In this document: positions 4,997-18,217 of the stretch, in pieces
Position numbering within the stretch: position 1 is the first letter of the stretch
Layout of the letters: the number at the start of each line of letters is the position of its first letter
NCBI GenBank assembly: GCA_020831765.1
Contig: JAFIFY010000109.1
Location: forward strand, 1-58,156
From: Phycisphaeraceae bacterium
GTDB taxonomy: Bacteria > Planctomycetota > Phycisphaerae > Phycisphaerales > Phycisphaeraceae
Direction: 5' to 3'
Length of the DNA stretch: 58,156 nt
The notes under the pieces: generated by a model
The model's database searches: none
What the model was told of the DNA's origin: nothing
The model's input: only the letters and a program-made list of their open reading frames with translations
Program-made: the position numbers and the translations under genes

Positions 4997-5321
4997 ATTT
5001 TGGAGTGTATCCCACGCCCTGCCACCCTCCAAACAAGCCGTTGCCGATCCTTCGGGATACCCATCGGCGGCCGCTCGAATCTCCGCGAACCGCTCTGACC
5101 AGACGGTCTTCGCACCTTCACCAACCGCAAGCCCGAACCGCAACGGTTCGGCTCAGATGCCAGTTGCCGCGATGATCGGAGACCTGCATGCAGGAAGTAA
5201 CTTCCGCGATCCCTGGCCCATCATGCCACCGTCACCGGACCGGCCGACGGTGATCGCGCCCGTTGGCAAGTGTGTCGAGCAATGACATCAGCGCGGCTTG
5301 TGGCTTAGAGCCGACCGCCCT
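4997..5321. other. Intergenic region with three short dyads
   Basis: No gene is supported in these 325 bases. Three compact inverted repeats are visible: CCGAACCG-CAA-CGGTTCGG at 5133-5151, the perfect 12-base palindrome CCTGCATGCAGG at 5183-5194, and GGAAGT-A-ACTTCC at 5193-5205 overlapping it by two bases. Any of them could be an operator for the antiporter gene or a transcription end signal for the phosphatase gene. None is followed by a T-run. Confidence 0.4.
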
Positions 5322-5945
5322 CTATACTGCCTGGCCGTTGGAAATCGGCCGGTTGGTGTATTCAAGCTTCCACCAGCCCTCCTCATGGCGGAGCAGGGTC
5401 AGGTTGCAGTTCTGGTGCGATATCAACAGGGGCTGGCGAATATCCAACAGAAATGCGATCAACGCCTGAAGGAAATGGCCGTGGGTGACGACGAGCAATT
5501 TAGGTTTCCGGTTGTACCGCTCGAGCAGACGGTTGCGAACGACCTGAACGCGATGCCGGGCTTGCGGTATGGGTTCATCCGCGATGGGCATCACGGGCCT
5601 GCCATCGTGAAAATCGAAAACATCCGGTAGACCAGCAAGATCGACGAACGGTTTGCTGGACCAGTTGTCGGCGGTGGGTCCTCGAACGGGATCGTTTCCG
5701 ATTTCGGCCAACTCCGGCCAGATTTCCGCCCGCCGTCGCGTGTGCTGGAGATAGGGAACGATCGTCTGCAAGGTTCGAGCCAACGGGCTCACAACGATCT
5801 GATCGAATTCCAGGGTCAGCAGGTGCCGCACAAGCTGATCCGCCTGTCGCTTCCCTTCTTCGGATAGAAGCCCGGACTGTTCAGTGGCATACTTCCCGGT
5901 GGCGTTGCCCTCGGATTCAGCATGTCGGAGCAGATACAGATCCAT
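5322..5945 (-). CDS. Histidine phosphatase family protein (phosphoglycerate mutase-like)
   Basis: Branch-1 histidine phosphatase superfamily member of 207 residues, a cytoplasmic phosphohydrolase or mutase. The phosphoacceptor motif LRHAES is at residues 5-10 with the following N-x-T-G, and the second catalytic histidine lies in VVTHGHFLQAL (about residue 155), both as expected. A Glu-containing segment follows PLARTLQT, the usual position of the conserved Arg and proton donor. The substrate cannot be told from sequence; cobC-, sixA- and gpmB-like members look alike at this level. The ATG at 5945 is directly before the first beta strand, which fixes the start well. Confidence 0.88.
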   Translation of the reverse strand: MDLYLLRHAESEGNATGKYATEQSGLLSEEGKRQADQLVRHLLTLEFDQIVVSPLARTLQTIVPYLQHTRRRAEIWPELAEIGNDPVRGPTADNWSSKPFVDLAGLPDVFDFHDGRPVMPIADEPIPQARHRVQVVRNRLLERYNRKPKLLVVTHGHFLQALIAFLLDIRQPLLISHQNCNLTLLRHEEGWWKLEYTNRPISNGQAV

Positions 5946-6108
5946 GGGCGACGATGATAACGGTTCACTCCCTCATTTCTGATTCGGACGATACGGCCGC
6001 AAGCGGAGGGCTCGGTCCGCAGCGCGACATGCAATGGCGCGGCTTGGTCGCGGCATTCCTGGAGCCCAATGGTTTGGGAAATTTGCAGATTCCCGGTGGT
6101 CCAAGACT

Positions 6109-6178
6109 CCCGGGGCGGATTCTGGGGGGTAATCCAGGGAGCCCGCTTCCGGGGGAACTCCGGGGGGACTTCCGGGGG
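6109..6178 (+). repeat. G-run-rich imperfect tandem repeat after atpG
   Basis: Immediately after the atpG stop codon (which reads on the minus strand) the plus strand has six runs of three to six G. These include a near-tandem unit of about 12-13 bases (CTTCCGGGGG, CTCCGGGGGG, CTTCCGGGGG). The composition favours G-quadruplex formation on the plus strand, while the atpG transcript would carry the C-rich complement. No hairpin-plus-T-run terminator is seen here. Confidence 0.5.
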
Positions 6179-7078
6179 TCAGGAGACGCTGGCGGCACCG
6201 GAGACGATTTCGTTGAGTTCGGTGGTGATGGCCGACTGACGGGCTCGGTTGTACTTCAGGGAGAGGGCCTTGCCGACCTTCTTGGCCGAGTCCGTGGCCG
6301 CCTTCATGGCGGTCATGCGGGCGACGTGTTCGCTGACGGTCGCTTCGTTGAAAATCTGGAAGAGCCGGGTCTTGACGGTCAGGGGCAACAGATCGGCCAG
6401 CAGGGTTTCGGGCTCGGGAGAGAACTCGAACTCGATTTCCGTCGTAGGACCAGCGGATTGGGCAGGCTGATCGGACGTGGGTTCGGATTTGGGTTTCTGC
6501 ATGGGCAGAATCTGCTCGACTTCCGGCACCTGCCTGGAACTGGAGACGAAGGCCATGTAGATGACCTGGATGGAGTCGTATTTTCCGGCTTCGAACCGCT
6601 CCATGTAGTTCTCGGCCAGTTCCTCGACCTCCTGATAGGCGACTTTCTCTCCGAAGTGGGCGAGGAATCGGGACACCGGGGTCCGCGAGAACTTCATGTA
6701 GCTAAAGCCTTTTTTGCCAACGACTTCCAGGTCAAACTCCTGGCCAGCTTCGCGCAGGGCGCGGAAGTGCTTGACCGCCGCGCGGAGGACATTGGCGTTG
6801 TAGGCACCACACAGGCCGCGGTTACTGGTCAGAACCAGAAGCAGATGTCGGCCGGTGGGTGGCTGAGGTGCCTGCAATAAAGGATGGGTTGCCACGCCGG
6901 ACCTGGAGGAGAGCTCGCTGACCAGTTCGGCAATTTTGCGGCTGAACGGCTGGCTGGCGGCGACCCGCCCGGAAGCGGCCTGAAACCGCGCGGTGGCGAT
7001 CATCTGCATGGTGCGCGTGATACGCTGGATATTGCCCACCGCTCGGATGCGGCCCTTGATTTCACGAGTTCGTCCCAT
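6179..7078 (-). CDS. atpG: ATP synthase F1 subunit gamma
   Basis: Gamma subunit of the F1 sector, the central rotor shaft of F-type ATP synthase. The 299-residue chain starts with the conserved coiled-coil region (EIKGRIRAVGNIQRIT, TRTMQMIATARF) and carries the SNRGLCGAYNANV motif near residues 85-97. It ends with the C-terminal helix (NRARQSAITTELNEIV) typical of AtpG. An insert of about 25 residues rich in P, S and E (residues about 197-222) is longer than in E. coli. Notably the gene stands alone: atpH/A upstream and atpD/C downstream are absent. The neighbours are a phosphatase gene downstream and a divergent beta-helix gene upstream, so the subunit must be coordinated with the rest of the complex from another locus. 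Confidence 0.95.
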   Translation of the reverse strand: MGRTREIKGRIRAVGNIQRITRTMQMIATARFQAASGRVAASQPFSRKIAELVSELSSRSGVATHPLLQAPQPPTGRHLLLVLTSNRGLCGAYNANVLRAAVKHFRALREAGQEFDLEVVGKKGFSYMKFSRTPVSRFLAHFGEKVAYQEVEELAENYMERFEAGKYDSIQVIYMAFVSSSRQVPEVEQILPMQKPKSEPTSDQPAQSAGPTTEIEFEFSPEPETLLADLLPLTVKTRLFQIFNEATVSEHVARMTAMKAATDSAKKVGKALSLKYNRARQSAITTELNEIVSGAASVS

Positions 7079-7142
7079 AAAGGCTCATGATAGCGTAGAC
7101 GATGAAACTAACAATTCGAGGACTGTCCAGGAGGGGCCCAAC

Positions 7143-8564
7143 ATGCTTCACTCCACCCAATGTCGCACAACACCCGATCATGAAACCTTGATATCCTCTT
7201 CATGGAGCGCCGGGTGTCGGCGCTGGCCGTTGCCGGGGAGATCGGGATGGTTGGCGGCCATGGTGGCGCTGGTCTTGACCTTCGGGTCCGGCGGTGTCGC
7301 CCTCGCCGAACAGGACGATGAGCCCAAAGACGAGGCGGCCAAAAAGGTTTACGCGCTGCCCGGCTTTCGCGATATCGAGCCCAAGCGGACGATCGTCGTC
7401 GGCAACGACCGCGAGCTTCGCCAGGCGACACGCGATGCTGAACCGGGCGACCATATCCAGATCAAGCCGGGCACCTATCGCGGGGACATTTTCATCAATG
7501 AACTGGCCGGCACGGCGGACGACCCGATCTTCATCGGGGCCAAGCATGCCCACGAGCCTCCGGTCATACGCGGAGGCCGACAGGGTCTGCACATCGTCCG
7601 GCCGCGGCATGTAATGATTCATGACCTTTTGATTGAGGATGTGGCGCTCAACGGGATCAACATCGACGATGGGATGCGTCCGGGCGGCGCATCGCATGTG
7701 ACCATCCGAAACGTTCGTGTGCGGAATGTGGGCGGCCAGGGCAACGAGGATGGGATCAAGCTCTCGGGTGTTCAGCATTTCGTGGTTCAGAGCGTGACGA
7801 TCGAGCGTTGGGGAGTTGGTGGTTCGGGTATCGACATGGTCGGTTGCCATCACGGCGAGATCATCGAGAGCCGATTCATTCACCGGGCCGGTGTCCTCAG
7901 TGGCAACGGCATCCAGGCCAAGGGCGGCAGCACCGAGATCGTGATTCGACACTGCCGCTTCGTGAACGCCGCCGGCCGCGCGGTGCAGATCGGCGGCTCG
8001 ACGGACCTGCGCTTCTTCCGCCCGGAACCGGCGGGATTCGAGGCCCGCAATATCACCGTCGAGGGCTGCAAGATCATCGGATCAGCCGCGGCGGTGGCCT
8101 TCGTCAACGCCGAGGATTCGGTCTTCCGCCACAACACCGTCTTTCGTCCGACGCACTGGGTGCTTCGCATTCTTCGCGAGCAGCACGCACGGGGATTCGC
8201 GCCCACGCGGAACAACACCTTCGAGCGCAACCTGATCATCTACGATGCACAATCGATCAACGATGTGGCCAACATCGGTCCGGGGACCGAGCCGCTGACG
8301 TTCCGCTTCCGCGAGAATTTCTGGTTCAGCGAGGATCGCAGTCGATCGGTGCCCGTCCTGCCGACCGCGGACCGCGGCGCGGTGATCGGACGCGATCCAA
8401 GATTCGATGGGCCGTTGCCCGGTGACCTTGCGCTATCCGAGAACAGTCCGGCCATCGGCTATGGCGCCACGGCCGAATTCGAACCGACGCGCATTTCCTC
8501 GATCTGGAGGTCGGTCAATCCGGACCACGAGGAAGATGGATCGCTCGTCTCGCCAGGTCCGTGA
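7143..8564 (+). CDS. Exported right-handed beta-helix (pectate-lyase-like) protein
   Basis: Secreted or periplasmic protein of 473 residues. A long N-terminal region ends in a hydrophobic signal segment (about residues 37-54, ending VALA before EQDD). It is followed by repeated short strands of the N-V-T-I-x-x-x-R-x-x-x-N type that define a right-handed parallel beta-helix (about residues 95-420), as in polysaccharide lyases and the NosD/PbH1 families. The stretch GDHIQIKPGTYRG is the usual entry into such helices. The start is set by AGGAGG ending about 8 bases before the ATG at 7143; the frame is open further upstream but without a ribosome site. The substrate is unknown, and polysaccharide binding or cleavage is a guess from fold. 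It is divergent from atpG by 64 bases. Confidence 0.8.
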   Translation: MLHSTQCRTTPDHETLISSSWSAGCRRWPLPGRSGWLAAMVALVLTFGSGGVALAEQDDEPKDEAAKKVYALPGFRDIEPKRTIVVGNDRELRQATRDAEPGDHIQIKPGTYRGDIFINELAGTADDPIFIGAKHAHEPPVIRGGRQGLHIVRPRHVMIHDLLIEDVALNGINIDDGMRPGGASHVTIRNVRVRNVGGQGNEDGIKLSGVQHFVVQSVTIERWGVGGSGIDMVGCHHGEIIESRFIHRAGVLSGNGIQAKGGSTEIVIRHCRFVNAAGRAVQIGGSTDLRFFRPEPAGFEARNITVEGCKIIGSAAAVAFVNAEDSVFRHNTVFRPTHWVLRILREQHARGFAPTRNNTFERNLIIYDAQSINDVANIGPGTEPLTFRFRENFWFSEDRSRSVPVLPTADRGAVIGRDPRFDGPLPGDLALSENSPAIGYGATAEFEPTRISSIWRSVNPDHEEDGSLVSPGP

Positions 8565-8789
8565 GCCAACGGCCGCAAATGACTTGATCACTTGGCATCC
8601 TTTCCGACGGCCGAAAATCCGTTTCCCCTACCTGAAAAGCCGTGGAACACTGCGTCCATGCCCCCATGCATAAGATAAGGCGACCGGGGCGTTGTGGGTT
8701 TGGTGGGTCGCGGCGACAATGGCGCTTCAGTGAGTGGCTGGGAGTCTGTCCGCGCTGCCCGGTTCCCTTTCTGCCAGGAGTATCGCACC

Positions 8790-10436
8790 ATGGCACGATA
8801 CACCCTTCGATTCAGTACGGTCTGGGCCTTTGTCCTGATCAGTGCGTTCTTGTTTTTTGCTCTTGGTTGGGCGGAAACCGTTCGAGCCGACTCCGGCGAT
8901 GAACGAGGACGCGCCCAGGCGATGTTCGATTCGCTCTACGGCGCTGACATTCAGCGGGCCCGATCCACGCGGGATAGCCGGGAATCGGTGGATCTGGCAC
9001 AGCGTCTCCTGGTCAACGCAAGGATCAGTGGGGTGAATGCTCCCCTTGCCGAGCTGATGCTGGATGCGGCCCATGATCTGGCGATGCGTCAGCCGGCCGG
9101 GTTCGATATCGCGGTGCAGGCCATGCGCGAGCTTGCCGAGCGTGTGCCTGAGCGGCATCAGGATGCCTACACGCGCGCGATCTCGGCCAGTCGCCGGGCC
9201 ATGAGCGCGGCATCGGCCGACAATCGACCCGCCGAGGCCAGGCGCCTTGTTGAATTGCACCTGGAGCTGGCCACCGCGCTGGAAGATAGCGGACAGTACG
9301 CCGAAGCCGGACGCATACTCTCACAGGCCACGGGGCCGGCCAACACCGCCGGCAGGCGTTGGCTGGAGGATATTCGCGCTGCCCAGCGGCGAGTCAGCGA
9401 CCTGACCCGAGTACAACGCGATGTCGAGAACCTTCGGGCGCGATTGGAATCCTCGCCAACGGATCAGACGATCCGCAGCCGGCTGGTCACCATGCTGGCC
9501 GTGGACCTGCAGAACCCGCGCGAGGCAGCGAGGATCATGCATCCCTTGACCGACGAGGATCTGAAGAACCGCGTCCGCATGGCCATACAACCGATCGGCC
9601 GGCTCAACGCAGAACAATCCCTGGAAATGGCCAATTGGTACCACGGTCTGGCCGGATCGCGTTCGGGAGACCTGGCGGTTCGCCTGATGGTCCAGTCGGC
9701 CGAGGCCTTTCGGCGGTATCTGGCCGTCAGTAGCGGCGACACACCCCAGCGCGCGCACGCGACGCTGATGCTACGCCGGCTGGAATCGGACATCCGTCGC
9801 ATGGCGGCCGATGGCGTGGCCTCGGCCAGCGCGGCGGCCGCGTCCAGACGGGTGAATATGCTCAGTCACGTCCGAAGCCCGACGGGACGCGACCATCACT
9901 GGACGGCCGAGCGCGGGGAAATATCGGCCAACGTGCCTGATGCTGTCGGCTGGCATCACGGGCCCCGCTTCACCGTGGAAACCGGCTTCAGCTACAGCGT
10001 CACCATGAAATTGCAGGTCCAGTCGGTTCCACGTGGACGGCACTCGGTTCGGATCAGCTTCCCGGTCGATGAAACCCTGCTTATGCTGACCCTGATGCCC
10101 AATCATGGCGATGCCCAGGACGCACGTCCGGCGATGAGCCGCGCCCGTCCCCCCTTGTTGACCGGGTTTGAGCTGGCACCGGGACCGATGCGCGGCCCCA
10201 CCGATTTCGACCTGCGGATCGAGGTTCGTCAGATCGGATCCGAAGTGGACATTCAAATCACGCTCAACGAGGAAGAGGCGATCAAGTGGCGAGGCTCGGT
10301 TCGTGAGCTCAGCCCGCCCGATCCCAACACCATCGGGCATCCCCAGTTGTTCCGCGTCCAGTTTCCCTCTCCGTTTGTGGGACGGATCATGGAGTTCACC
10401 GGAAGCGGCGAGATTCAGCCCCTGTCGAGCTCCTGA
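8790..10436 (+). CDS. Exported protein of unknown function
   Basis: A 548-residue protein with a clear signal peptide (hydrophobic residues about 9-27, cleavage likely after VRA). I do not recognise the family. The first 350 residues look alpha-helical and repeat-like (many A/R/L-rich amphipathic segments, reminiscent of TPR solenoids). The last 180 residues are beta-rich with alternating hydrophobics, suggesting a C-terminal beta-sandwich. The start is the ATG at 8790, preceded by CAGGAG about 9 bases upstream; 32 extra in-frame codons upstream lack a ribosome site. It follows the beta-helix gene by 225 bases, so co-expression is possible, and it overlaps the convergent NUDIX gene by 22 bases at its 3' end. 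Confidence 0.75.
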   Translation: MARYTLRFSTVWAFVLISAFLFFALGWAETVRADSGDERGRAQAMFDSLYGADIQRARSTRDSRESVDLAQRLLVNARISGVNAPLAELMLDAAHDLAMRQPAGFDIAVQAMRELAERVPERHQDAYTRAISASRRAMSAASADNRPAEARRLVELHLELATALEDSGQYAEAGRILSQATGPANTAGRRWLEDIRAAQRRVSDLTRVQRDVENLRARLESSPTDQTIRSRLVTMLAVDLQNPREAARIMHPLTDEDLKNRVRMAIQPIGRLNAEQSLEMANWYHGLAGSRSGDLAVRLMVQSAEAFRRYLAVSSGDTPQRAHATLMLRRLESDIRRMAADGVASASAAAASRRVNMLSHVRSPTGRDHHWTAERGEISANVPDAVGWHHGPRFTVETGFSYSVTMKLQVQSVPRGRHSVRISFPVDETLLMLTLMPNHGDAQDARPAMSRARPPLLTGFELAPGPMRGPTDFDLRIEVRQIGSEVDIQITLNEEEAIKWRGSVRELSPPDPNTIGHPQLFRVQFPSPFVGRIMEFTGSGEIQPLSSS

Positions 10437-10912
10437 TTCGCTGGCGGCCGGGGCTGGCCCCGGTCGTCTTCGCCCAGCAAGGCGCGCCAAGCCGGCCCTT
10501 CTCGAGCGATCCAGGCAAGGATCGGCCCATTGGCGGGCGGGAAGCGGAATTCCTTGAGCCCGCCGATCGGAATCCAGCGGTGCTCGCTGACCGCCAGATT
10601 GCGACAACTTCCGGAAATAAACCGACAGACCATCGGCCACAGCCGCACCCGACGATGCGGGTAGCGGTGGTCGACCGGCTCACCCTGGGCCACGGGCTCG
10701 ACCTCGATGTCCAGTTCCTCGCGAATTTCGCGAGTCGCGGCGTCGGACGGGGTCTCGTTGCCCTCGATCTTGCCTCCCGGAAACTCCCAGAAACCGGCCA
10801 GATCGGCGTCGGGCCGCCTAAGAGATAATAAGACCTCTATTGATTCACCTTGCGGGCGAAGGACGATCCCGATCGCGATTTCCACAAACTGTCCCGAGCC
10901 GGTTTCGGACAT
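10415..10912 (-). CDS. NUDIX hydrolase, MutT/8-oxo-dGTP diphosphatase-like
   Basis: Hydrolase of nucleoside diphosphates linked to X, 165 residues. The Nudix box G-x5-E-x7-REIREELDI is complete (about residues 47-69), preceded by GFWEFPGGK as in MutT-type house-cleaning enzymes. A W-x-x-x-G-L segment near residue 115 matches the MutT C-terminal half. The likely role is removal of oxidised dGTP before it is misincorporated. The ATG at 10912 has GAAGGA seven bases upstream; a GTG six codons earlier (10930) has a site that is too close. It overlaps the end of the convergent exported-protein gene by 22 bases. Confidence 0.88.
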   Translation of the reverse strand: MSETGSGQFVEIAIGIVLRPQGESIEVLLSLRRPDADLAGFWEFPGGKIEGNETPSDAATREIREELDIEVEPVAQGEPVDHRYPHRRVRLWPMVCRFISGSCRNLAVSEHRWIPIGGLKEFRFPPANGPILAWIAREGPAWRALLGEDDRGQPRPPANQELDRG

Positions 10913-11092
10913 TTTTCGTCCTTCACTCACACCTCAAAAACACGCGCCAACCACGCTTCTAAACCTCGATTGCCGGAGACTTTGCAGGCTCGATCCCAAG
11001 CGCGAAACCGCCGCACTCGAGCATGATTGCAGTTTCCTAAATGCCCAAAAATAAGAAGTTTACCACATAATGATGATTCCCCGGCATTTTCG

Positions 11093-11122
11093 TTGACAGA
11101 CCAATCCGACGGTCGATAGGAT
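11093..11122 (+). promoter_or_regulatory. Sigma70-type promoter of orphan small RNA
   Basis: A perfect -35 TTGACA (11093-11098) is followed after 18 bases by TAGGAT (11117-11122). The predicted transcription start is near 11129. No plus-strand protein gene lies downstream before a strong terminator 45 bases further, so the promoter seems to drive only a short RNA. Confidence 0.6.
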
Positions 11123-11128
11123 AAGCAG

Positions 11129-11211
11129 GCACTCCGGTGGCCACTAAATCTGATCAGCCGTGGCGCGCCTCCGCCCGCAGGTTTCGGAGCCCTGCGGCGG
11201 GGGCTTTTTTT
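11129..11211 (+). ncRNA. Candidate small RNA of about 80 nt
   Basis: Between the promoter and the terminator lie about 80 bases with a first hairpin GCCAC...GTGGC (11140-11164, 15-base loop). The terminator stem follows directly. There is no ribosome site or ORF of note. Both neighbouring genes (NUDIX and O-methyltransferase) are on the minus strand, so this unit is independent of them. I cannot assign it to a known RNA family; it lacks the conserved loop of SRP RNA and is too short for 6S RNA. Confidence 0.5.
11167..11211 (+). terminator. Rho-independent terminator of small RNA
   Basis: A stem of 14 base pairs with one bulged C (left arm 11167-11181, right arm 11191-11204) is followed directly by seven T. 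It points along the plus strand; the complement lacks a T-run. This is the strongest terminator shape in the window. Confidence 0.85.
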
Positions 11212-11377
11212 ATCCCTTGATCAACCAAGGTGACAGGTTTTCAACATTGCGGTTCGCCGCTTCAAATCGTCGGGTCGATCAACGGGTAAGCATCGCGACC
11301 ACCGCCGCGCGCATCGCGCGCAACGCTTGACCATCCGCATCGGCCATTCAATGCGATTCAGCGCATCACGATGCGCA

Positions 11378-11947
11378 TCAACCCATGCGGAAGGCCAGCT
11401 CAAACCCGTTGCCGATCTCAACGTCGCATCCGACAAAGCCTTCCAACGCGCGGATGCGCTGCACAAACGCGCCAAGCTCGCGCCGGTGCGTCCGCGTATT
11501 GTCCAACGCGATTGCGACACGCGGTGCCAGGCGAGGCAACAGCACATCGAGATAAGCATCCGACTGCTGCTTCACCGCATCGATGAACACAAAGTCATAC
11601 GGCGCTTCCGGTTCGACCTGCTCAAGCGTCTTTCGCGCATCCCCGACCGTAAACGTGACACGATCGGCAAGTCCGGCCTCCGCCAGATGCGCTCCGGCGG
11701 CGTCGTGCTTCTTCTCGCTGAGGTCGAAGCTGTAGACGTGGCCGCCGTTCCGCTGCGCGGCCGCAGCCAGGTGCAACGTGCTAAATCCATACGAATGCCC
11801 CACTTCACAAATGCTCTTGAACCCCCCGATCAGCACGATCTGCATCAGCACCAAAGCCTCGTCAGCCGGAATCTGCCAATGATCATCCACCTGCCCACGC
11901 AAGGCATCCACCTTCGCCACGACTTCCGCCACCTTGCCGCTGAGCAT
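11378..11947 (-). CDS. Class I SAM-dependent O-methyltransferase-like protein
   Basis: Cytoplasmic methyltransferase of about 189 residues. The SAM-binding motif I is seen as ICEVGHSYGFSTLHLA (about residues 47-62), the acidic end of strand 2 as VYSFDLSEKK, and motif IV as YDFVFIDAVKQQ. These resemble the Methyltransf_3/24 O-methyltransferases. Motif I has GHSYG in place of the usual G-T-x-x-G. The acceptor is unknown. AGGAG lies eight bases before the ATG at 11947; another ATG two codons upstream (11953) is too close to it. It follows the fucosidase gene on the same strand by 37 bases, so the two probably share a transcript. Confidence 0.78.
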   Translation of the reverse strand: MLSGKVAEVVAKVDALRGQVDDHWQIPADEALVLMQIVLIGGFKSICEVGHSYGFSTLHLAAAAQRNGGHVYSFDLSEKKHDAAGAHLAEAGLADRVTFTVGDARKTLEQVEPEAPYDFVFIDAVKQQSDAYLDVLLPRLAPRVAIALDNTRTHRRELGAFVQRIRALEGFVGCDVEIGNGFELAFRMG

Positions 11948-11984
11948 GGTCATCACTCCTGAAACAATCCGGAAACAACGGGCA

Positions 11985-13274
11985 TCAACCCTTGAGGAAA
12001 ATCTCAATCACCGGCACTTCCACCTTCGGCTTGATGACCGGCAGGTGCAGCGCCACCATATCGCTGAAGCCCAGGTCCACCCCGCCGTACTTGGCTTCGT
12101 GGATGCGATCGATCCGCACCTCGCTGGCATCGTGCAGGAACTGGGCGTACTCGATGCGCTCCACCAGGCCGGGGCAGAGGATATGGCGATAAGGCCAGTT
12201 GAACAGATGCAGGTAGAGACGCCGGTCTTCGGCGTTGTAGGTGTAACGCGAGTCGGCCGGCGCAACCAAACCTTCGGGCGCCGCCCCGCAGCCGTGGATC
12301 GACCGCGAATGATGATGCATCCAGCGCGCGACCCCCTCAAGCCGATCCCTCGCCCGGTCATCGAACTCGCCCCGCCCAGTCGGACCGACATTCAATAGCA
12401 GATTGCCCCCCTTGCTTACGCCATCAATCAGCATCCAGAGCAATTGCTCCACCGATTTCCAGGTCATCTCATCGCGGTGGTAGCCCCACGATCCGCTGAG
12501 CGTCTGGCACGCCTCCCAGACCGCCGGCTTGCCGGATTCATCACGAATGCCCGCCGGCGGCTGGAACTGCTCGGGCGTGAGGAAATCGCCCACGCCGGGA
12601 AGGTCGAGCCGGTTATCCACCAGCACGTGCGGCTGAAGCTCCCGCACCATCGCGTAGAGCTTCTCGCTTTCCCAGTCATCGCGCCCTTTGCCATCCTCGC
12701 CGGGGTACGAAAAATCGAACCAGAGCAGATCGATCCGACCGAACTCGGTCAGCAGCTCGCGCACCTGATCGCGCATGTACTTGGCGTAGCGCTTCATGTC
12801 GCGCCCCGCGTTCTCCGCTCGTGCCGCTTCATCCTCACGAAGCGGGTGGACCCGATCGATCGTGAAATCCGGATGGTGCCAGTCGATCAGGGAGTAATAG
12901 AAGCCGATCTTCAGCCCCTCATCCCGGAACGCCTCGACCATCGGCTTGAGTAGATCGCGACCCGCCGGCGTCTTGGGCGCCTTGTAATCGGTGAATTTGC
13001 TGTCCCACAGACAGAAGCCTTCATGATGCTTGGTGGTGATGACAAAGTATTTCATCCCCGCGCGGCGGGCCATCTTCGCCCACTGGCGTGGATCGTAAAG
13101 GTCCGGATCGAACCGCTGGAAATACCTTCGATAATCTTCCGGGCGGATTTTCTCGCGGTTCTGTACCCATTCATGCCGCGCCGGAAGCGCGTAGAGCCCC
13201 CAGTGAATGAACATGCCGAATCGATCGGCCACGAACCAGTCGGTCGAAGGCTTGGGCAACGTATCTGCGGACAT
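11985..13274 (-). CDS. Alpha-L-fucosidase (GH29), cytoplasmic
   Basis: Glycoside hydrolase family 29 retaining alpha-L-fucosidase of 429 residues. Diagnostic segments are WFVADRFGMFIHWGLYALP at the N-terminus, YFVITTKHHEGFCLWDS (about residues 75-91), and the nucleophile region IDLLWFDFSYPG, where the Asp of WFD is the expected nucleophile. NLLLNVGPTGRGEFD follows. There is no signal peptide, whereas many GH29 enzymes are secreted, so it should act on imported oligosaccharides. The start ATG at 13274 has AAGGAGCAGG upstream. It is followed on the same strand by the O-methyltransferase gene, and a GH4 glycosidase gene lies 1.6 kb upstream, suggesting a small sugar-degradation neighbourhood. 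Confidence 0.9.
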   Translation of the reverse strand: MSADTLPKPSTDWFVADRFGMFIHWGLYALPARHEWVQNREKIRPEDYRRYFQRFDPDLYDPRQWAKMARRAGMKYFVITTKHHEGFCLWDSKFTDYKAPKTPAGRDLLKPMVEAFRDEGLKIGFYYSLIDWHHPDFTIDRVHPLREDEAARAENAGRDMKRYAKYMRDQVRELLTEFGRIDLLWFDFSYPGEDGKGRDDWESEKLYAMVRELQPHVLVDNRLDLPGVGDFLTPEQFQPPAGIRDESGKPAVWEACQTLSGSWGYHRDEMTWKSVEQLLWMLIDGVSKGGNLLLNVGPTGRGEFDDRARDRLEGVARWMHHHSRSIHGCGAAPEGLVAPADSRYTYNAEDRRLYLHLFNWPYRHILCPGLVERIEYAQFLHDASEVRIDRIHEAKYGGVDLGFSDMVALHLPVIKPKVEVPVIEIFLKG

Positions 13275-13458
13275 GGCGAACCTGCTCCTTGAGACCAGGC
13301 GGCGAACATGGACCCGTCGCCGCACAACCCGAACCCAACCGCCGACGCTCTGGCGAATCGGGAACGAACCGAACACTCTACCAGACCGCCCATCCACAAC
13401 ACGAACCACAGGGGCGCCATCGGCCTGAGGTCGCGATCAGCCAATTCCCGACTTCACT

Positions 13459-14487
13459 TTACGAACCGACACCGGACCCATCCTCATCGTCCAGCTCATC
13501 CACACCGTTCCGCGTCGCCGTCGCTTCTTCCATCTGCCGGTCGTAGCGCTCCCGATTGCTTCGGCCATCCATGAGCAGAAAGACGCGATCGCGATCGGCC
13601 GCGGGAACATGCTCACCCATCAGCCGCCGGATTTCGCCGATGTGCGTGCGGCGGGAAAGATGCGTGAGAATGATCGCCCTGGCCTGACTGACCTTGAGCA
13701 GCTCGACGATATCCATCAGGTGCAGGTGCTGCCCGACCCTGGCCTTGCTCCGGTGTTCCGGATCGACGAACGTACATTCGGCGATCAATAGCTGGCTTTG
13801 AAGCACATCCGGTCGATGCAGATGCTCGCCCATCTGCGTATCGCCAGTGTACGCCACAAGGGGAATCTCCACCATCTGGGTGATGTTCCGGCCGCTTTTT
13901 TTGAGCTCGATGAGCTTTTCCTGCGGCAGGCCGACCAGTTCCGGCAGCAGCTTGCTTCGCCGCTCGACCACGACATAGCCTTGGGCGGGCACCGGGTGCC
14001 GCGCTGGGATGGCGCGCAGGAAATGATTGTTCTTGATCTCCAACTCGTGATCGACATCCAGCGGCACCACGTTGTAAGGCGTCTCCTGCTGCTCGATATC
14101 CACCCACGAAGCCATCATCCGGCGGATCGGCTGATCCAGGGCCGGCGGACAGATCACCGTGCCCACACCCATGCCCTGGAACTTGCGCTGGGAAAAGTAA
14201 TACGGCAAACCGCCGACGTGATCCATATGGCCGTGGCTGAGGGCGACAAAGGGACTGGTCAGCACGGCCTTGTGCGCCTGGCCGATGTCAAAGCACACAT
14301 CCAGTTCCGGCACCTGGACGACCGTCTGCTCTCCGGCGATCGAAACACCCTGGACGCGAAGCGGCGGGAACAGCAGAAAGCCCAATTGGGGCGACTTGAC
14401 CGGTTGACGGGGGAGCACGGGCCGAATCCTTTTTCTGGCGGGGCTGAGCCCAAGCGGTGCGTGGACAGGTAATTTCGCCCGTCCCAT
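13459..14487 (-). CDS. MBL-fold hydrolase, ribonuclease Z-like
   Basis: Metallo-beta-lactamase-fold protein of 342 residues. The zinc ligand motif SHGHMDH is at residues 84-90. The following GGLPYYF, the later YTGDT (Asp ligand) and LTHLSRR (His) match the RNase Z/ElaC group, which matures tRNA 3' ends; other phosphodiesterases share this fold. The ATG at 14487 precedes a basic linker and the first strand. The frame is open to 14667, but the extra residues translate a tRNA-like T-arm sequence and are not credible. A highly acidic C-terminal tail (DELDDEDG) ends the chain. The enzyme could equally be a PqsE/PhnP-type phosphodiesterase, so no gene symbol is given. Confidence 0.78.
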   Translation of the reverse strand: MGRAKLPVHAPLGLSPARKRIRPVLPRQPVKSPQLGFLLFPPLRVQGVSIAGEQTVVQVPELDVCFDIGQAHKAVLTSPFVALSHGHMDHVGGLPYYFSQRKFQGMGVGTVICPPALDQPIRRMMASWVDIEQQETPYNVVPLDVDHELEIKNNHFLRAIPARHPVPAQGYVVVERRSKLLPELVGLPQEKLIELKKSGRNITQMVEIPLVAYTGDTQMGEHLHRPDVLQSQLLIAECTFVDPEHRSKARVGQHLHLMDIVELLKVSQARAIILTHLSRRTHIGEIRRLMGEHVPAADRDRVFLLMDGRSNRERYDRQMEEATATRNGVDELDDEDGSGVGS

Positions 14488-14595
14488 GGAGCGGAAAGCC
14501 GGTATGGGTCTTCCTTGAACGACGTGGGGAGCCGAGGCTTTCCAACACGCCGCGCACCGCCCTTGCCAGGAAAAAGGGAAAACGCACCGGCGACA

Positions 14596-14619
14596 GGCCA
14601 CCGCGGGAATCGAACCCGC
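14596..14619 (-). pseudogene. tRNA 3'-end-like fragment (T-arm plus acceptor strand)
   Basis: The minus strand shows a perfect 5-bp T-stem with a canonical TTCGATT loop, then seven bases in the acceptor position. A 5' partner of the form GG[CT][CT][AG][CT][CT] is not found at tRNA distance; the nearest is a six-of-seven match 108 bases away. It may be a decayed tRNA, the remnant of a tRNA-directed integration event, or chance. It lies just upstream of the RNase Z-like gene. Confidence 0.35.
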
Positions 14620-14708
14620 AACCGGGCGCACAGCCCATCCGGCCAGAACCCGCACCGGCCGACCCACAAAGGGCGGGCACGGATGGATTCTCCAGGCGCG
14701 GCCATTTC

Positions 14709-14725
14709 GACCTGACCGTCAGGTC
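14709..14725. promoter_or_regulatory. Perfect 17-base palindrome, putative operator
   Basis: GACCTGAC-C-GTCAGGTC is a perfect 8+1+8 inverted repeat of the size bound by TetR- or GntR-type dimers. A TATACT box lies about seven bases downstream on the plus strand, though no plus-strand gene follows. On the minus strand it sits about 220 bases upstream of the RNase Z-like start. Confidence 0.4.
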
Positions 14726-14856
14726 AAGCCATATACTCAGCGACATGCGGACCCGGGTCAAGTCGATCGAATCGCCCGAGCACGGAAAGCCATGATGCGG
14801 CCACCGGCACCGTCATGCCGCGGGATTGCGATGGACATGCCCCGAATGCGGGCCGA

Positions 14857-16242
14857 TCACACCACAGCGCCGGCTGGCTTGATGCCGTAACGCTCCTGGG
14901 CTTCGATCGCATCGCCCTGCTCTTCGAGCATATCCTGGAGCAGCGCATCGATATCGCCGATCGAGCTGGTCAACGGGTCGATGACCAGAGCGCGGCGGAG
15001 CATCCGCATATCGCCGTCGTGAATCGCCTGGGCGGTCAATTCGTGCGTATCCAGAATCTGCTCGCAAAGCCCGCGGATCCCCCGCGGCATGGGTGGACAG
15101 GGAAGCGGTCGCGGTCCGTTCATGTCCAGTTCGCTGTAAAGCTCGATGAACGCATCATCGCTCATGTTCGGCACAGCGCCGCGGTTGGCGGTGTTGATGA
15201 AAAACCGCTTGCCGAGATTGCCCCACATGCCTTCGATAATGTCCGTGGCCGGGTCCGGCCCGAAGGTTTTGTCGAATGTGGGGATGTCCAGCTTCCCGGA
15301 GATGAAGTCGTCCACCTGCTGCCACGCCTTGGCCGTCATCTCGGCGCGGGATTCGGAATCAAAGATCATCAGCGGCGGAATCGCATCCTTGCCGGTGCGG
15401 CCAAGGCCCTGGTAGTAGCGCACATATTCCTTGGTGTGGGAAACCACCGAAGGCAGGGTGCCCAGGGTTTCATAAAGCTCAACGGCGATGGCATTGTTCA
15501 GCCAACCCTTGGCGTATCGCTTGCCGCCATCGACCTGCTCGTTGAGGTCCGCATCGGCGGCCTTGCGCATGTGCTCGACCACCTTGGGCAGTATGTCGCG
15601 ACCGTCGTATTCGGCCTTGAGCGTCCAGGTGAAATGGTTCGGCCCGGCGGTCAGGATTGTGAGTTTCTCATCGTCCGTCACGCCGGCGGCCTCGGCCCAA
15701 TGACGCCGCAACCCCCACTGGGCATCGCACAGGGCCAGCGACTTGAGCTCCGGGAAATACCGCCGCACCGCCATGCCGTGAACGGTCGTCGGGTTCACAT
15801 AGTTGATCACCCAGGCCTTGGGGCACAGCTTCTTGATGTCAGCGCAGATGCGAAGCACATGGGGAAGCTCTCGGGCGCTGCGAAAGACGCCGCCCGGCCC
15901 GATCGTGTCGCCCGAGCACATCCGGATACCGTACTTCTCCGACACGCGGCAATCCACACCGCGAAAGTGGGCGTTACGCTCGGCAAAGGAAAGCACGACG
16001 AAATCGGCATCGGCCAACACCTCGGTGCGGTCGGTCGAGGCCTCGATCTTCAAAGGAACCTTGTGATGATCCCGAACCTTCACCGCCAGTTGGCGCATAC
16101 GCTCGAGGTTTGATGGATCGGTATCCACCAGCGCGAGCGTCCCGGTCCGCAGATGCGGCGAATGCACCATCTGCCAGATCGCCTTTCGCCCGAAAAAGAA
16201 ACTCCCCGCCCCGACAATCACCACCTTCGGTTGCTGAGCCAT
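14857..16242 (-). CDS. Glycoside hydrolase family 4 (alpha-galactosidase/alpha-glucosidase type)
   Basis: NAD+- and Mn2+-dependent GH4 glycosidase of 461 residues, cytoplasmic, cleaving via redox at C3 of the sugar. The N-terminal Rossmann motif is VVIVGAGSFFFG (residues 7-18), followed by LVDTDP at the end of strand 2. The NPT motif appears in VINYVNPTTVHG, and the metal-binding Cys is in LALCDAQWG, with His about 20-30 residues later as the second ligand candidate. A ribosome site AAAGGAATGG precedes the ATG at 16242. Substrate specificity (galacturonide, galactoside or glucoside) cannot be read from this. It lies near the GH29 fucosidase gene, supporting a role in plant- or algal-polysaccharide breakdown products. 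Confidence 0.88.
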   Translation of the reverse strand: MAQQPKVVIVGAGSFFFGRKAIWQMVHSPHLRTGTLALVDTDPSNLERMRQLAVKVRDHHKVPLKIEASTDRTEVLADADFVVLSFAERNAHFRGVDCRVSEKYGIRMCSGDTIGPGGVFRSARELPHVLRICADIKKLCPKAWVINYVNPTTVHGMAVRRYFPELKSLALCDAQWGLRRHWAEAAGVTDDEKLTILTAGPNHFTWTLKAEYDGRDILPKVVEHMRKAADADLNEQVDGGKRYAKGWLNNAIAVELYETLGTLPSVVSHTKEYVRYYQGLGRTGKDAIPPLMIFDSESRAEMTAKAWQQVDDFISGKLDIPTFDKTFGPDPATDIIEGMWGNLGKRFFINTANRGAVPNMSDDAFIELYSELDMNGPRPLPCPPMPRGIRGLCEQILDTHELTAQAIHDGDMRMLRRALVIDPLTSSIGDIDALLQDMLEEQGDAIEAQERYGIKPAGAVV

Positions 16243-16407
16243 GGCCTGACCATTCCTTTTGAAAAGGGACTTGACAAAGCGCCGGCGGACACCGGCCCAA
16301 CCCGGAACGATACCACATCGCGGCCGAAACTCCGAACAGCGCGGCATACCGTCCCAACCCATGGATAAGGTCTTCTGTTTTCAGTATTTTCTCGTGCCGT
16401 CGGCGGC

Positions 16408-17103
16408 TCATCCGCCTGCCGGATCACCCAGCGACTCAAGGCGATTCAGCCAGTCACCGAAATGCGGGCAGGCCTTCCGCAGGCGATCAAGCCCGATGCG
16501 GTTGGTGATGATCGGCCCATGCACTCGCTTGCGATAGCTTTGACCGACGACGCGGAGTAGACGCCGGGACGGGCAGGTTTCAGCACCATCGTCGATCGCT
16601 TCGGGCGAGCCGGCTTCATCAAGAATTAGCTCGAACTTTGTTCGCAGGCGGGACCGGGATGCGCGGCTCAAGGGGGCGGTAACTTCAGCGAGTTCCGCGA
16701 CGCCGGCGAACGCAAGTGCCTCGAACTCATGAAGCTGAACGTACGGCAGGAACCGGCCCGGGCTGAACGACGCGCCCAGGGTCTGGGCGATATCAAGTCC
16801 CATGGCCTCCTGGACATGTTCGGCCCGCTTATCCCATGGCAGGGCCGCGGCCGCCTCACGTCCGGGCCAATCATCCGGCATGCCATAGAAATCAAACATC
16901 GTGGTGCAGAATGGCTGCCGCTTGAGTGATCGAATGATGTCGTCCCGGACAACACGCCACTTTGGCACTCCGCCCCGCCGGCGCGGCCACCCCGGGAGCA
17001 CCGACCAGATCGACACGCCGCGAAGCCCGAGATGCTCAGCCAACTGGTCGCGAATGAAGGTCTGCTCGGTCTGACCCTCAACAATCGCCTCCACCTTATT
17101 CAT
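16408..17103 (-). CDS. DUF4276 family protein (TOPRIM-like nuclease candidate)
   Basis: A 231-residue protein of the DUF4276 type. The N-terminal IVEGQTEQTFI (residues 7-17) matches TOPRIM motif 1 with its catalytic-type Glu, and an acidic FDFYGMPDDWPG segment (about residues 75-86) could supply the D-x-D metal ligands. VQLHEFEALAF is also typical of DUF4276. Its ATG (17103) lies inside the end of the ATPase gene: the two overlap by eight bases, so translation is probably coupled. TOPRIM plus ABC-ATPase pairs include OLD nucleases, Gabija GajA and PARIS (AriA/AriB), so an antiphage or DNA-repair role is the best inference. There is no signal peptide. Confidence 0.82.
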   Translation of the reverse strand: MNKVEAIVEGQTEQTFIRDQLAEHLGLRGVSIWSVLPGWPRRRGGVPKWRVVRDDIIRSLKRQPFCTTMFDFYGMPDDWPGREAAAALPWDKRAEHVQEAMGLDIAQTLGASFSPGRFLPYVQLHEFEALAFAGVAELAEVTAPLSRASRSRLRTKFELILDEAGSPEAIDDGAETCPSRRLLRVVGQSYRKRVHGPIITNRIGLDRLRKACPHFGDWLNRLESLGDPAGG

Positions 17104-18217
17104 GCATCGGCCCCCCGGCCACCACGTTCTTCTGCCAGAGCTCACCCACGGAGTACTCGTCCAGCCATTCCTTTAATTGGTCGGCGGACAGTCGCTCGAA
17201 CGTTGACCGGCCTTCACGACGATTCACCACAATCACCTGCTCCGGGTCGAAGTAATCCAGAAGTGTGGATGACTGGGTCGAGATGATCACCTGAGTTCGT
17301 TCCGATGCGGATTTGATCAACTCGGCCAAGACCGAAAGCGCATAGGGATGGAGGCCAAGCTCGGGTTCATCGATCAAGATCGTCGCCGGTAGCCGCGGTT
17401 GCATCAGGGCCGTGGCCAGGCAGATGAATCGAATCGTGCCGTCCGAAAGCTGGCTGGGCTGGAACGGAAAATCACTGCCCTTCTGCGTCCACTCCAACCG
17501 AATCAATTCATTCTCGCCGCGCTTCTCAGGCCGGAGCACGAAATCGTTGAAGAAGGGCGCGATGAGGCGAATCGTGTCGCGAATCAATTGGTAGCGCCCG
17601 GAGTCGGTTTCCCGCAACCGCAGCAGAAACGGGGCGAGATTGGATGCATCCTCTCGGAATCGCTCATTGTCCCGGAGAGACTGCGGGCGACGCATCGGCG
17701 CAACGTCGGACGTGTCGTGAAAATGGTACACCGTCCAGCTCGATATCGCATTGTAAACGTACCATTCAACCCCGTGCTGATTGCCAGGCAAACCGGGCTC
17801 GTCTTTATTCTTCCTGACCGCGGATTCAAGCGATCCCGCGCCAACGGTGTTCAAGGTCCCCAACCCCTCCCCACCGGTGTGCCGCACCCGTTCCTCAGCG
17901 ATCTGAATCCTGCCATCGGCGGTCGGCTCAAGGTCGAATTCATAGATGTTCTGGGGAAACTCCAGATGCGATTTGATCCGCCGCGTCACCCTCGGCCCCA
18001 GATAAAAGAATTCGTCTCCGCCGCCACTTGCGTTGATGAATTTCTGAAACACCCCGTCCATCATCGCGCGCAGCATCCGGAAGAACTCAACGAAGTTGCT
18101 CTTGCCCGCGCCGTTGGCACCGATCAGAATGTTTAGCCTTCGATCGAGAGCAAGCCCCTCCAGGTGGTCAATCGACTTGAATCCATGAATCGACAGAGAC
18201 TTGAGGGTTGAGTCCAT
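17096..18217 (-). CDS. AAA-family (ABC/RecF-like, AAA_21) ATPase of a two-gene module
   Basis: SMC/RecF-like ATPase of 373 residues. Walker A GANGAGKS is at residues 33-40, preceded by the typical FKSIDHLEG strand. The signature motif LSDGT is at about residue 265 and Walker B with D-loop ILIDEPELGLHP about 25 residues later, followed by the H-loop region IISTQSS. There is no coiled-coil arm of SMC length. This is the ATPase type of OLD, RloA, PARIS AriA and retron-associated proteins. Its 3' end overlaps the DUF4276 gene by eight bases. The start ATG at 18217 gives the usual N-terminus; no good Shine-Dalgarno is visible. The region upstream is divergent to a TPR gene. Confidence 0.85.
   Translation of the reverse strand: MDSTLKSLSIHGFKSIDHLEGLALDRRLNILIGANGAGKSNFVEFFRMLRAMMDGVFQKFINASGGGDEFFYLGPRVTRRIKSHLEFPQNIYEFDLEPTADGRIQIAEERVRHTGGEGLGTLNTVGAGSLESAVRKNKDEPGLPGNQHGVEWYVYNAISSWTVYHFHDTSDVAPMRRPQSLRDNERFREDASNLAPFLLRLRETDSGRYQLIRDTIRLIAPFFNDFVLRPEKRGENELIRLEWTQKGSDFPFQPSQLSDGTIRFICLATALMQPRLPATILIDEPELGLHPYALSVLAELIKSASERTQVIISTQSSTLLDYFDPEQVIVVNRREGRSTFERLSADQLKEWLDEYSVGELWQKNVVAGGPMHE

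Follow-up and report, generated by a model that had tools for sequence, protein, structure and literature searches.

The data suggest that the plus strand between a NUDIX hydrolase gene and an O-methyltransferase gene in the window (the whole 58,156-nt stretch of Phycisphaeraceae DNA analysed here) very probably carries a gene for a small non-coding RNA. Judged from conserved promoters, stems and sequence elements, this gene looks like one member of an sRNA family common to about half of the sampled Phycisphaerae genomes. As to function, we lean slightly towards a free-standing sRNA that acts in trans through a near-constant element, GCCGUGGCGC, probably without Hfq.

The features of the locus are collected in Table 1. 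The first-pass annotation had proposed a TTGACA/TAGGAT promoter with an 18-base spacer, and this promoter is present at 11093-11122, where it gives 10 of 12 matches (TTGACA-N18-TAGGAT). The RNA would start at about 11129, a position set 7 nt beyond the -10 element. The terminator hairpin begins 44 nt past the -10 element, in agreement with the earlier estimate of about 45 bases. Its 14 pairs and seven T were borne out, but the description of it as perfect was not, as one C is bulged; the loop is 9 nt. Both flanking genes, the NUDIX hydrolase and the O-methyltransferase, are on the minus strand, as had been stated. A GCCAC/GTGGC hairpin that had been placed between the promoter and the terminator appears in one minimum-energy fold, but another fold pairs differently and the hairpin is not conserved. 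Overall, the window's fold is only somewhat better than those of shuffled sequences (z -1.94; 5 of 200 shuffles as good). There is no ATG in the predicted RNA. Two plus-strand GTG frames start inside it (27 and 56 aa), the second of which opens within the conserved motif and reads through the terminator.

Table 1. Positions of the predicted small RNA gene, its parts and the adjacent genes in the window
Feature	Position	Strand	Basis or remark
-35 element TTGACA	11093-11098	+	Sequence read; kept in members
-10 element TAGGAT	11117-11122	+	18-nt spacer from -35; usual own-family form TASGAT
Predicted small RNA, about 83 nt	11129-11211	+	Promoter and terminator positions
Variable leader	11129-11155	+	Weakly conserved in own family (20-locus alignment)
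GCCAC/GTGGC hairpin (11140-11144 with 11160-11164)	11140-11164	+	Drawable, not conserved
Conserved element AGCCGTGGCGC, proposed interaction site	11156-11166	+	Alignment columns and exact-match counts
Terminator hairpin, 14 pairs, one bulge	11167-11204	+	Fold; covariation
Terminator loop TCGGAGC	11184-11190	+	Constant in order, rare in rest of class
T tract of intrinsic terminator, seven T	11205-11211	+	Sequence read
NUDIX hydrolase (MutT-like) gene, divergent from the RNA unit	10415-10930	-	Its start faces the unit
O-methyltransferase gene, convergent on the RNA unit, outside the unit	11378-12007	-	Next gene downstream

The RNA had been called an orphan, and this does not hold because the family is spread across the class Phycisphaerae. 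In a blastn search of the window's own genome and 60 relatives, 22 of the relatives, all from the same family, match the last 58 nt or so with 79-90% identity (E<1e-5). The own genome has a single copy, the next match having an E-value of 1.3. A covariance model built on 20 aligned loci (R1) finds the RNA in 38 of 51 own-family genomes at E<=0.1, 36 of these at E<=1.2e-11, and in 56 of 151 genomes of the order at E<=0.1; families f2, f3, f4 and f6 are included and the weakest matches are near noise. A second model (R2), built from 53 members in a structural alignment, finds it in 108 of 298 class genomes at E<=0.01. R2 gives seven matches outside the class, all of them weak, and none of the four that were read is member-like. 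Sixty further places were read after R2. In members from other orders, GCCGUGGC is accompanied by a stem such as CUUCCGG/CCGGAAG and a T tract, and most of these members have a hairpin CGGCU-loop-AGCCG directly before.

A two-hairpin model from 44 sequences (R3) finds the RNA in 224 of 397 class genomes at E<=1e-3; 24 of these matches are weaker than 1e-8, leaving 200, and the models were partly built from genomes later searched. In a sample of the phylum, 90 of 294 genomes pass a loose E<=0.01 with R3, many of them outside the class. The E-values of R3 are thus too generous and the gap in score was used instead: the 14 class genomes in the phylum sample with E<=1e-8 all score at least 38.5 bits, and nothing outside the class (about 270 genomes) exceeds 26.5 bits (E 2.9e-7). 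R3 matches are mostly one per genome, although some genomes have two or more, and there are four in one genome of another family (G184). R1 and R3 give no match in the nearly complete own-family genomes G003, G016, G021 and G071.

The order-level pattern was also searched for in a named collection, where it occurs in 52 stretches, 18 of which were read as sequence. Forty-eight of the 52 have planctomycete or Phycisphaerae names, and one that is named only 'bacterium' has the full structure. The stem is absent from the matching stretches of Lutimaribacter, Pseudomonas and Desulfoprunum, which were rejected as chance. A virus-borne origin was likewise rejected: viral contigs hold one exact match to the class pattern, with no terminator behind it in the printed sequence, and none to the order pattern. 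After reading, L107 (G090), L234 (G099) and L242-L245 (outside the class) were set aside as non-members; L107 is still within the 55 order places scored for promoters and the 54 neighbourhood members given below. L080 was omitted where its contig ends too early and kept in the 55 promoter places and the 37 own-family members.

The first-pass annotation had looked to compensatory changes in two stems for support of the RNA, and the terminator stem provides them. In the structural alignment of 53 members, which is fitted to the model's structure and so favours the stem somewhat, 12 of 14 pairs have two-sided changes. In this alignment 96.8% of cells are paired, compared with 32-53% for slid partners, and none of 500 shuffles is as good on any of five measures. 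An unfitted alignment of 20 loci has two-sided changes in 3 of 14 pairs, with 9 of 500 shuffles as good. At the level of the class, 89.9% of cells are paired in helix 1 of R3 and 87.2% in helix 2. No shuffle out of 500 is as good on four measures, and 28 are as good on the number of two-sided pairs. These changes fall in 10 of 13 pairs of helix 2 and in only 1 of 6 of helix 1. Most members keep the loop UCGGAGC and the sequence preceding the stem unchanged, even though the stem itself is rewritten. The other stem, GCCAC/GTGGC, is not conserved in the own family.

The promoter is kept as well. Within the order, 41 of 55 places score at least 9/12, in comparison with 35 of 1100 random stretches, and the own-family form is mostly TTGACA-N18-TASGAT. 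In other orders a score of at least 10 is found in 38 of 46 members (controls, 30 of 920), often as TTGACA-N17-TATAGT. Predicted lengths of the own-family RNAs are 70-127 nt (median 91). The earlier proposal of a free-standing RNA of about 80 nt, assigned to no family, is therefore supported at the level of sequence by the retention of promoter and stem and by the lack of an Rfam match.

The most constant part of the RNA is GCCGUGGCGC, which lies directly 5' of the terminator. An exact GCCGTGGC is present in 32 of 37 own-family members and all 46 members of other orders, but in the order's other families only 11 of 26 members have it, and its variation there is in several cases accompanied by a change in the partner arm. 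In other orders GCCGUGGCGC forms the 3' side of a hairpin, CGGCU...AGCCG, whose loop is mostly U-rich. Outside the own family, the pairing score between the fixed element and the upstream arm is 5.96, compared with 3.69 for shuffled sequences (n=72). Within the own family it is 3.80 compared with 3.58 (n=36), although single members keep the pairing. Base-pair probability across 52 members of the order, with L087 also omitted, shows a small excess (0.73 vs 0.62), and in the window the pairing of the arm with the leader is 0.72, against 0.67 for shuffled leaders, 17 of 40 of which do as well. These values suggest that pairing of the fixed element has, on average, been lost in the own family and its sequence retained. 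Since the sequence persists beyond its pairing partner, GCCGUGGCGC itself is best explained as functional and is probably the working part of the RNA; on the same grounds the GCCAC/GTGGC hairpin is no conserved feature. The loop UCGGAGC is present in 60 of 63 members of the order and in 4 of 46 in other orders, which points to either a specialisation that arose later or a second site.

There is no Hfq in the 61 genomes searched (the own genome and 60 relatives), whereas CsrA is encoded by every one of them, and 51 have at least two matches. This favours an sRNA that pairs in trans without Hfq. A housekeeping-type promoter would start the RNA at about 11129 and an intrinsic terminator would end it at about 11211. 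GCCGUGGCGC, which abuts the terminator hairpin on its 5' side, would be the RNA's contact with a partner, most likely as a base-pairing seed for one or more mRNAs in trans, acting without Hfq. The seed would lie inside a small hairpin in other orders and would, on average, be open in the window's family. For base-pairing in trans, taken by itself, we see about an even chance.

The exact 10-nt complement of the element, GCGCCACGGC, is found at 22 places in six class genomes, chosen as presumed low-GC (GC assumed), compared with 50 for a control pattern, so there is no excess. Six of the 22 places are the RNA gene itself and the remainder share no gene. As this search gave no common target, the mode of action, like transcription and the start site, is one that we infer. 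Pairing of the seed with the start region of the NUDIX gene, with starts taken from mechanical ORFs, is no better than for shuffled sequences (mean -13.0 vs -13.1 kcal/mol; 23 of 46 better). At one place in G246 (L263; C19:254036-254045) an unrelated terminator-like hairpin has the exact 10-nt complement in its loop, which is possibly a sponge RNA or chance. In G265, a congener of G246, the 10-mer is confined to the RNA gene and a single site within a long open frame.

It is scarcely credible that the locus is a chance pairing of promoter and terminator with no RNA function. Promoter-like sites alone do occur at chance level in this region (3 vs 2.9 expected in a scan of 5000-18000) and terminator-like sites are mildly above it (13 vs 9.4 expected, sd 2.8). 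The whole unit, however, defined as a promoter of at least 10/12 followed by a stem of at least 12 pairs and then at least 6 T, is found once in the window and in none of 100 dinucleotide shuffles, with both strands searched, and conservation and covariation extend across the class. A leader peptide or small protein in place of a non-coding RNA is very improbable. Short GTG frames cross the region, and a member in G205 (L213) has a well-placed ATG frame that runs through hairpin 1 into the terminator. Yet in 63 of 89 promoter-scored members, counting ATG starts alone, no frame stays open into the fixed element, the remaining 26 use all three frames, only the G205 member has an SD-like sequence, and stem positions change in compensating pairs. 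An open frame SRGA... was considered as a leader peptide because it occurs in many of the members listed, but was rejected as there is no shared start or frame. The frame in L213 has 25 codons, follows an SD-like GGAGG and reaches into the terminator loop, and is leader-peptide-like. The main rival to base-pairing accepts the RNA but makes it a binder of protein, with GCCGUGGCGC, and in the order also the loop UCGGAGC, as a protein site through which the RNA would sequester or scaffold the protein. A 10-nt motif that is near-fixed throughout the class might just as well serve as such a site, and the sequence is near-fixed across the class with no shared target found; the ubiquity of CsrA and the GGA in the order-level hairpin loop also fit. 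Against binding through CsrA, there is one GGA loop only, and 42 of 46 other-order members lack UCGGAGC. A CsrA decoy acting through this loop was rejected since the loop is not class-wide. We regard protein binding in general as rather unlikely, and give similarly tentative credence to an ancient, class-wide housekeeping RNA, in which GCCGUGGCGC would bind a class-common partner (a conserved RNA or protein) and the RNA would function, without Hfq, as a global regulator or part of a core ribonucleoprotein and not as a niche sRNA.

The genes around the RNA bear on whether it is free-standing in all orders. Upstream, a gene of the NUDIX sequence cluster is head-to-head with the RNA in 32 of 54 order-set members and in 47 of 108 members overall, also in other orders. 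It is possible that the NUDIX gene and the RNA gene share a regulatory region. Downstream, the genes within the order differ in identity and strand. In other orders, 29 of 46 members have a co-oriented gene of one sequence cluster, the pyrK cluster, about 20-320 nt past the T tract (e.g. L210, L213 and L236). This arrangement prompted a look at a pyrK leader, in which case the RNA would descend from, or in other orders still be, an attenuator or leader of a pyrK-pyrD operon. Two members of the pyrK cluster were tested against Pfam and both carry a PyrK-type domain, and a separate cluster, read as pyrD-like, is present at 12 of the loci. On the other hand, the gene downstream in the window has the opposite orientation, and a PyrK-type domain is found in 7 of 21 genomes, the RNA being present in seven that have no such match (G001, G005, G008, G009, G010, G011 and G041, some of which are incomplete drafts). 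In the six genomes with both, the RNA and the PyrK domain are on different contigs. A shared leader peptide is absent, and inspection by eye revealed no mutually exclusive antiterminator. A -10-like hexamer (at least 5/6) lies directly before the pyrK start in 7 of 29 cases, a count that is weak and only suggestive because each start was chosen by its best -10 and is thus biased. For some of the pyrK-cluster genes there appears to be a separate -10 element so close to the start that hardly any leader is left. Taken together, the reading as a pyrK-pyrD leader is disfavoured and we consider it improbable.

A free-standing sRNA acting through GCCGUGGCGC is of a known kind. RsaE/RoxS of Firmicutes are Hfq-independent, trans-acting sRNAs with their own promoter and an intrinsic terminator. 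The Phycisphaerae RNA resembles them in being a small gene, mostly one per genome, with a sigma-70-type promoter, an intrinsic terminator, a short fixed sequence element and a wide taxonomic range. It differs in that its sequence and phylum are other and its fixed element is GC-rich and adjoins the terminator. CsrA-sequestering RNAs of the CsrB/RsmZ type carry many GGA sites. In the window's order the Phycisphaerae RNA shares with them a GGA in a hairpin loop, and CsrA is present in each of the 61 genomes examined, but the RNA is much shorter, its single GGA loop is rare in other orders and it has no Rfam match. Pyrimidine-operon attenuators are known as the PyrR leader and the E. coli pyrBI type. 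The likeness to these is an intrinsic terminator and a position before pyrK on the same strand in many other-order members; in contrast, the RNA is free-standing in the window, occurs in genomes with no PyrK match, and has neither a shared leader peptide nor a match in Rfam.

No Rfam 15 family was matched at its gathering threshold, either in the window or in 18 loci from relatives. A permissive search gave five sub-threshold matches in all, three of which are plus-strand look-alikes of the terminator: nse_sRNA (15.4 bits, cut-off 75), Betaproteobacteria_toxic_sRNA (14.5, cut-off 50) and Spot 42 (13.5, cut-off 80). Their likeness is a terminator hairpin with a U tract. Identity with any of these was rejected, the scores being far below cut-off and the resemblance that of terminators by chance. 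In the literature, the titles and abstract openings among the matches listed, from sources with few subscription journals and no bioRxiv, describe no such RNA for Phycisphaerae or other planctomycetes. This is a new RNA family of a known kind, the free-standing sRNA, and is remarkable for the depth of its conservation.

Regulatory RNAs of planctomycetes are little charted. Table 1 of a 2022 review (PMC9029176) gives 8 distinct annotated sRNAs for the PVC group and 345 for Proteobacteria. Having no match in the RNA catalogue and being shared class-wide, the RNA is likely to be a regulator in a group with very few known. A class-wide RNA in a class where none of the 61 genomes searched gave an Hfq match offers an entry point to this biology. 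There is a cultured host, Poriferisphaera heterotrophicis ZRK32, whose chromosome CP066225 contains a member (L160) with a predicted RNA of about 127 nt; strand-specific RNA-seq of this strain has been published (PMC10945688), from a standard library in which short RNAs may be lost. Additionally, the family has a near-fixed candidate interaction site and provides a natural contrast between other orders, in which this site lies in a hairpin, and the window's family, in which the hairpin is mostly lost.
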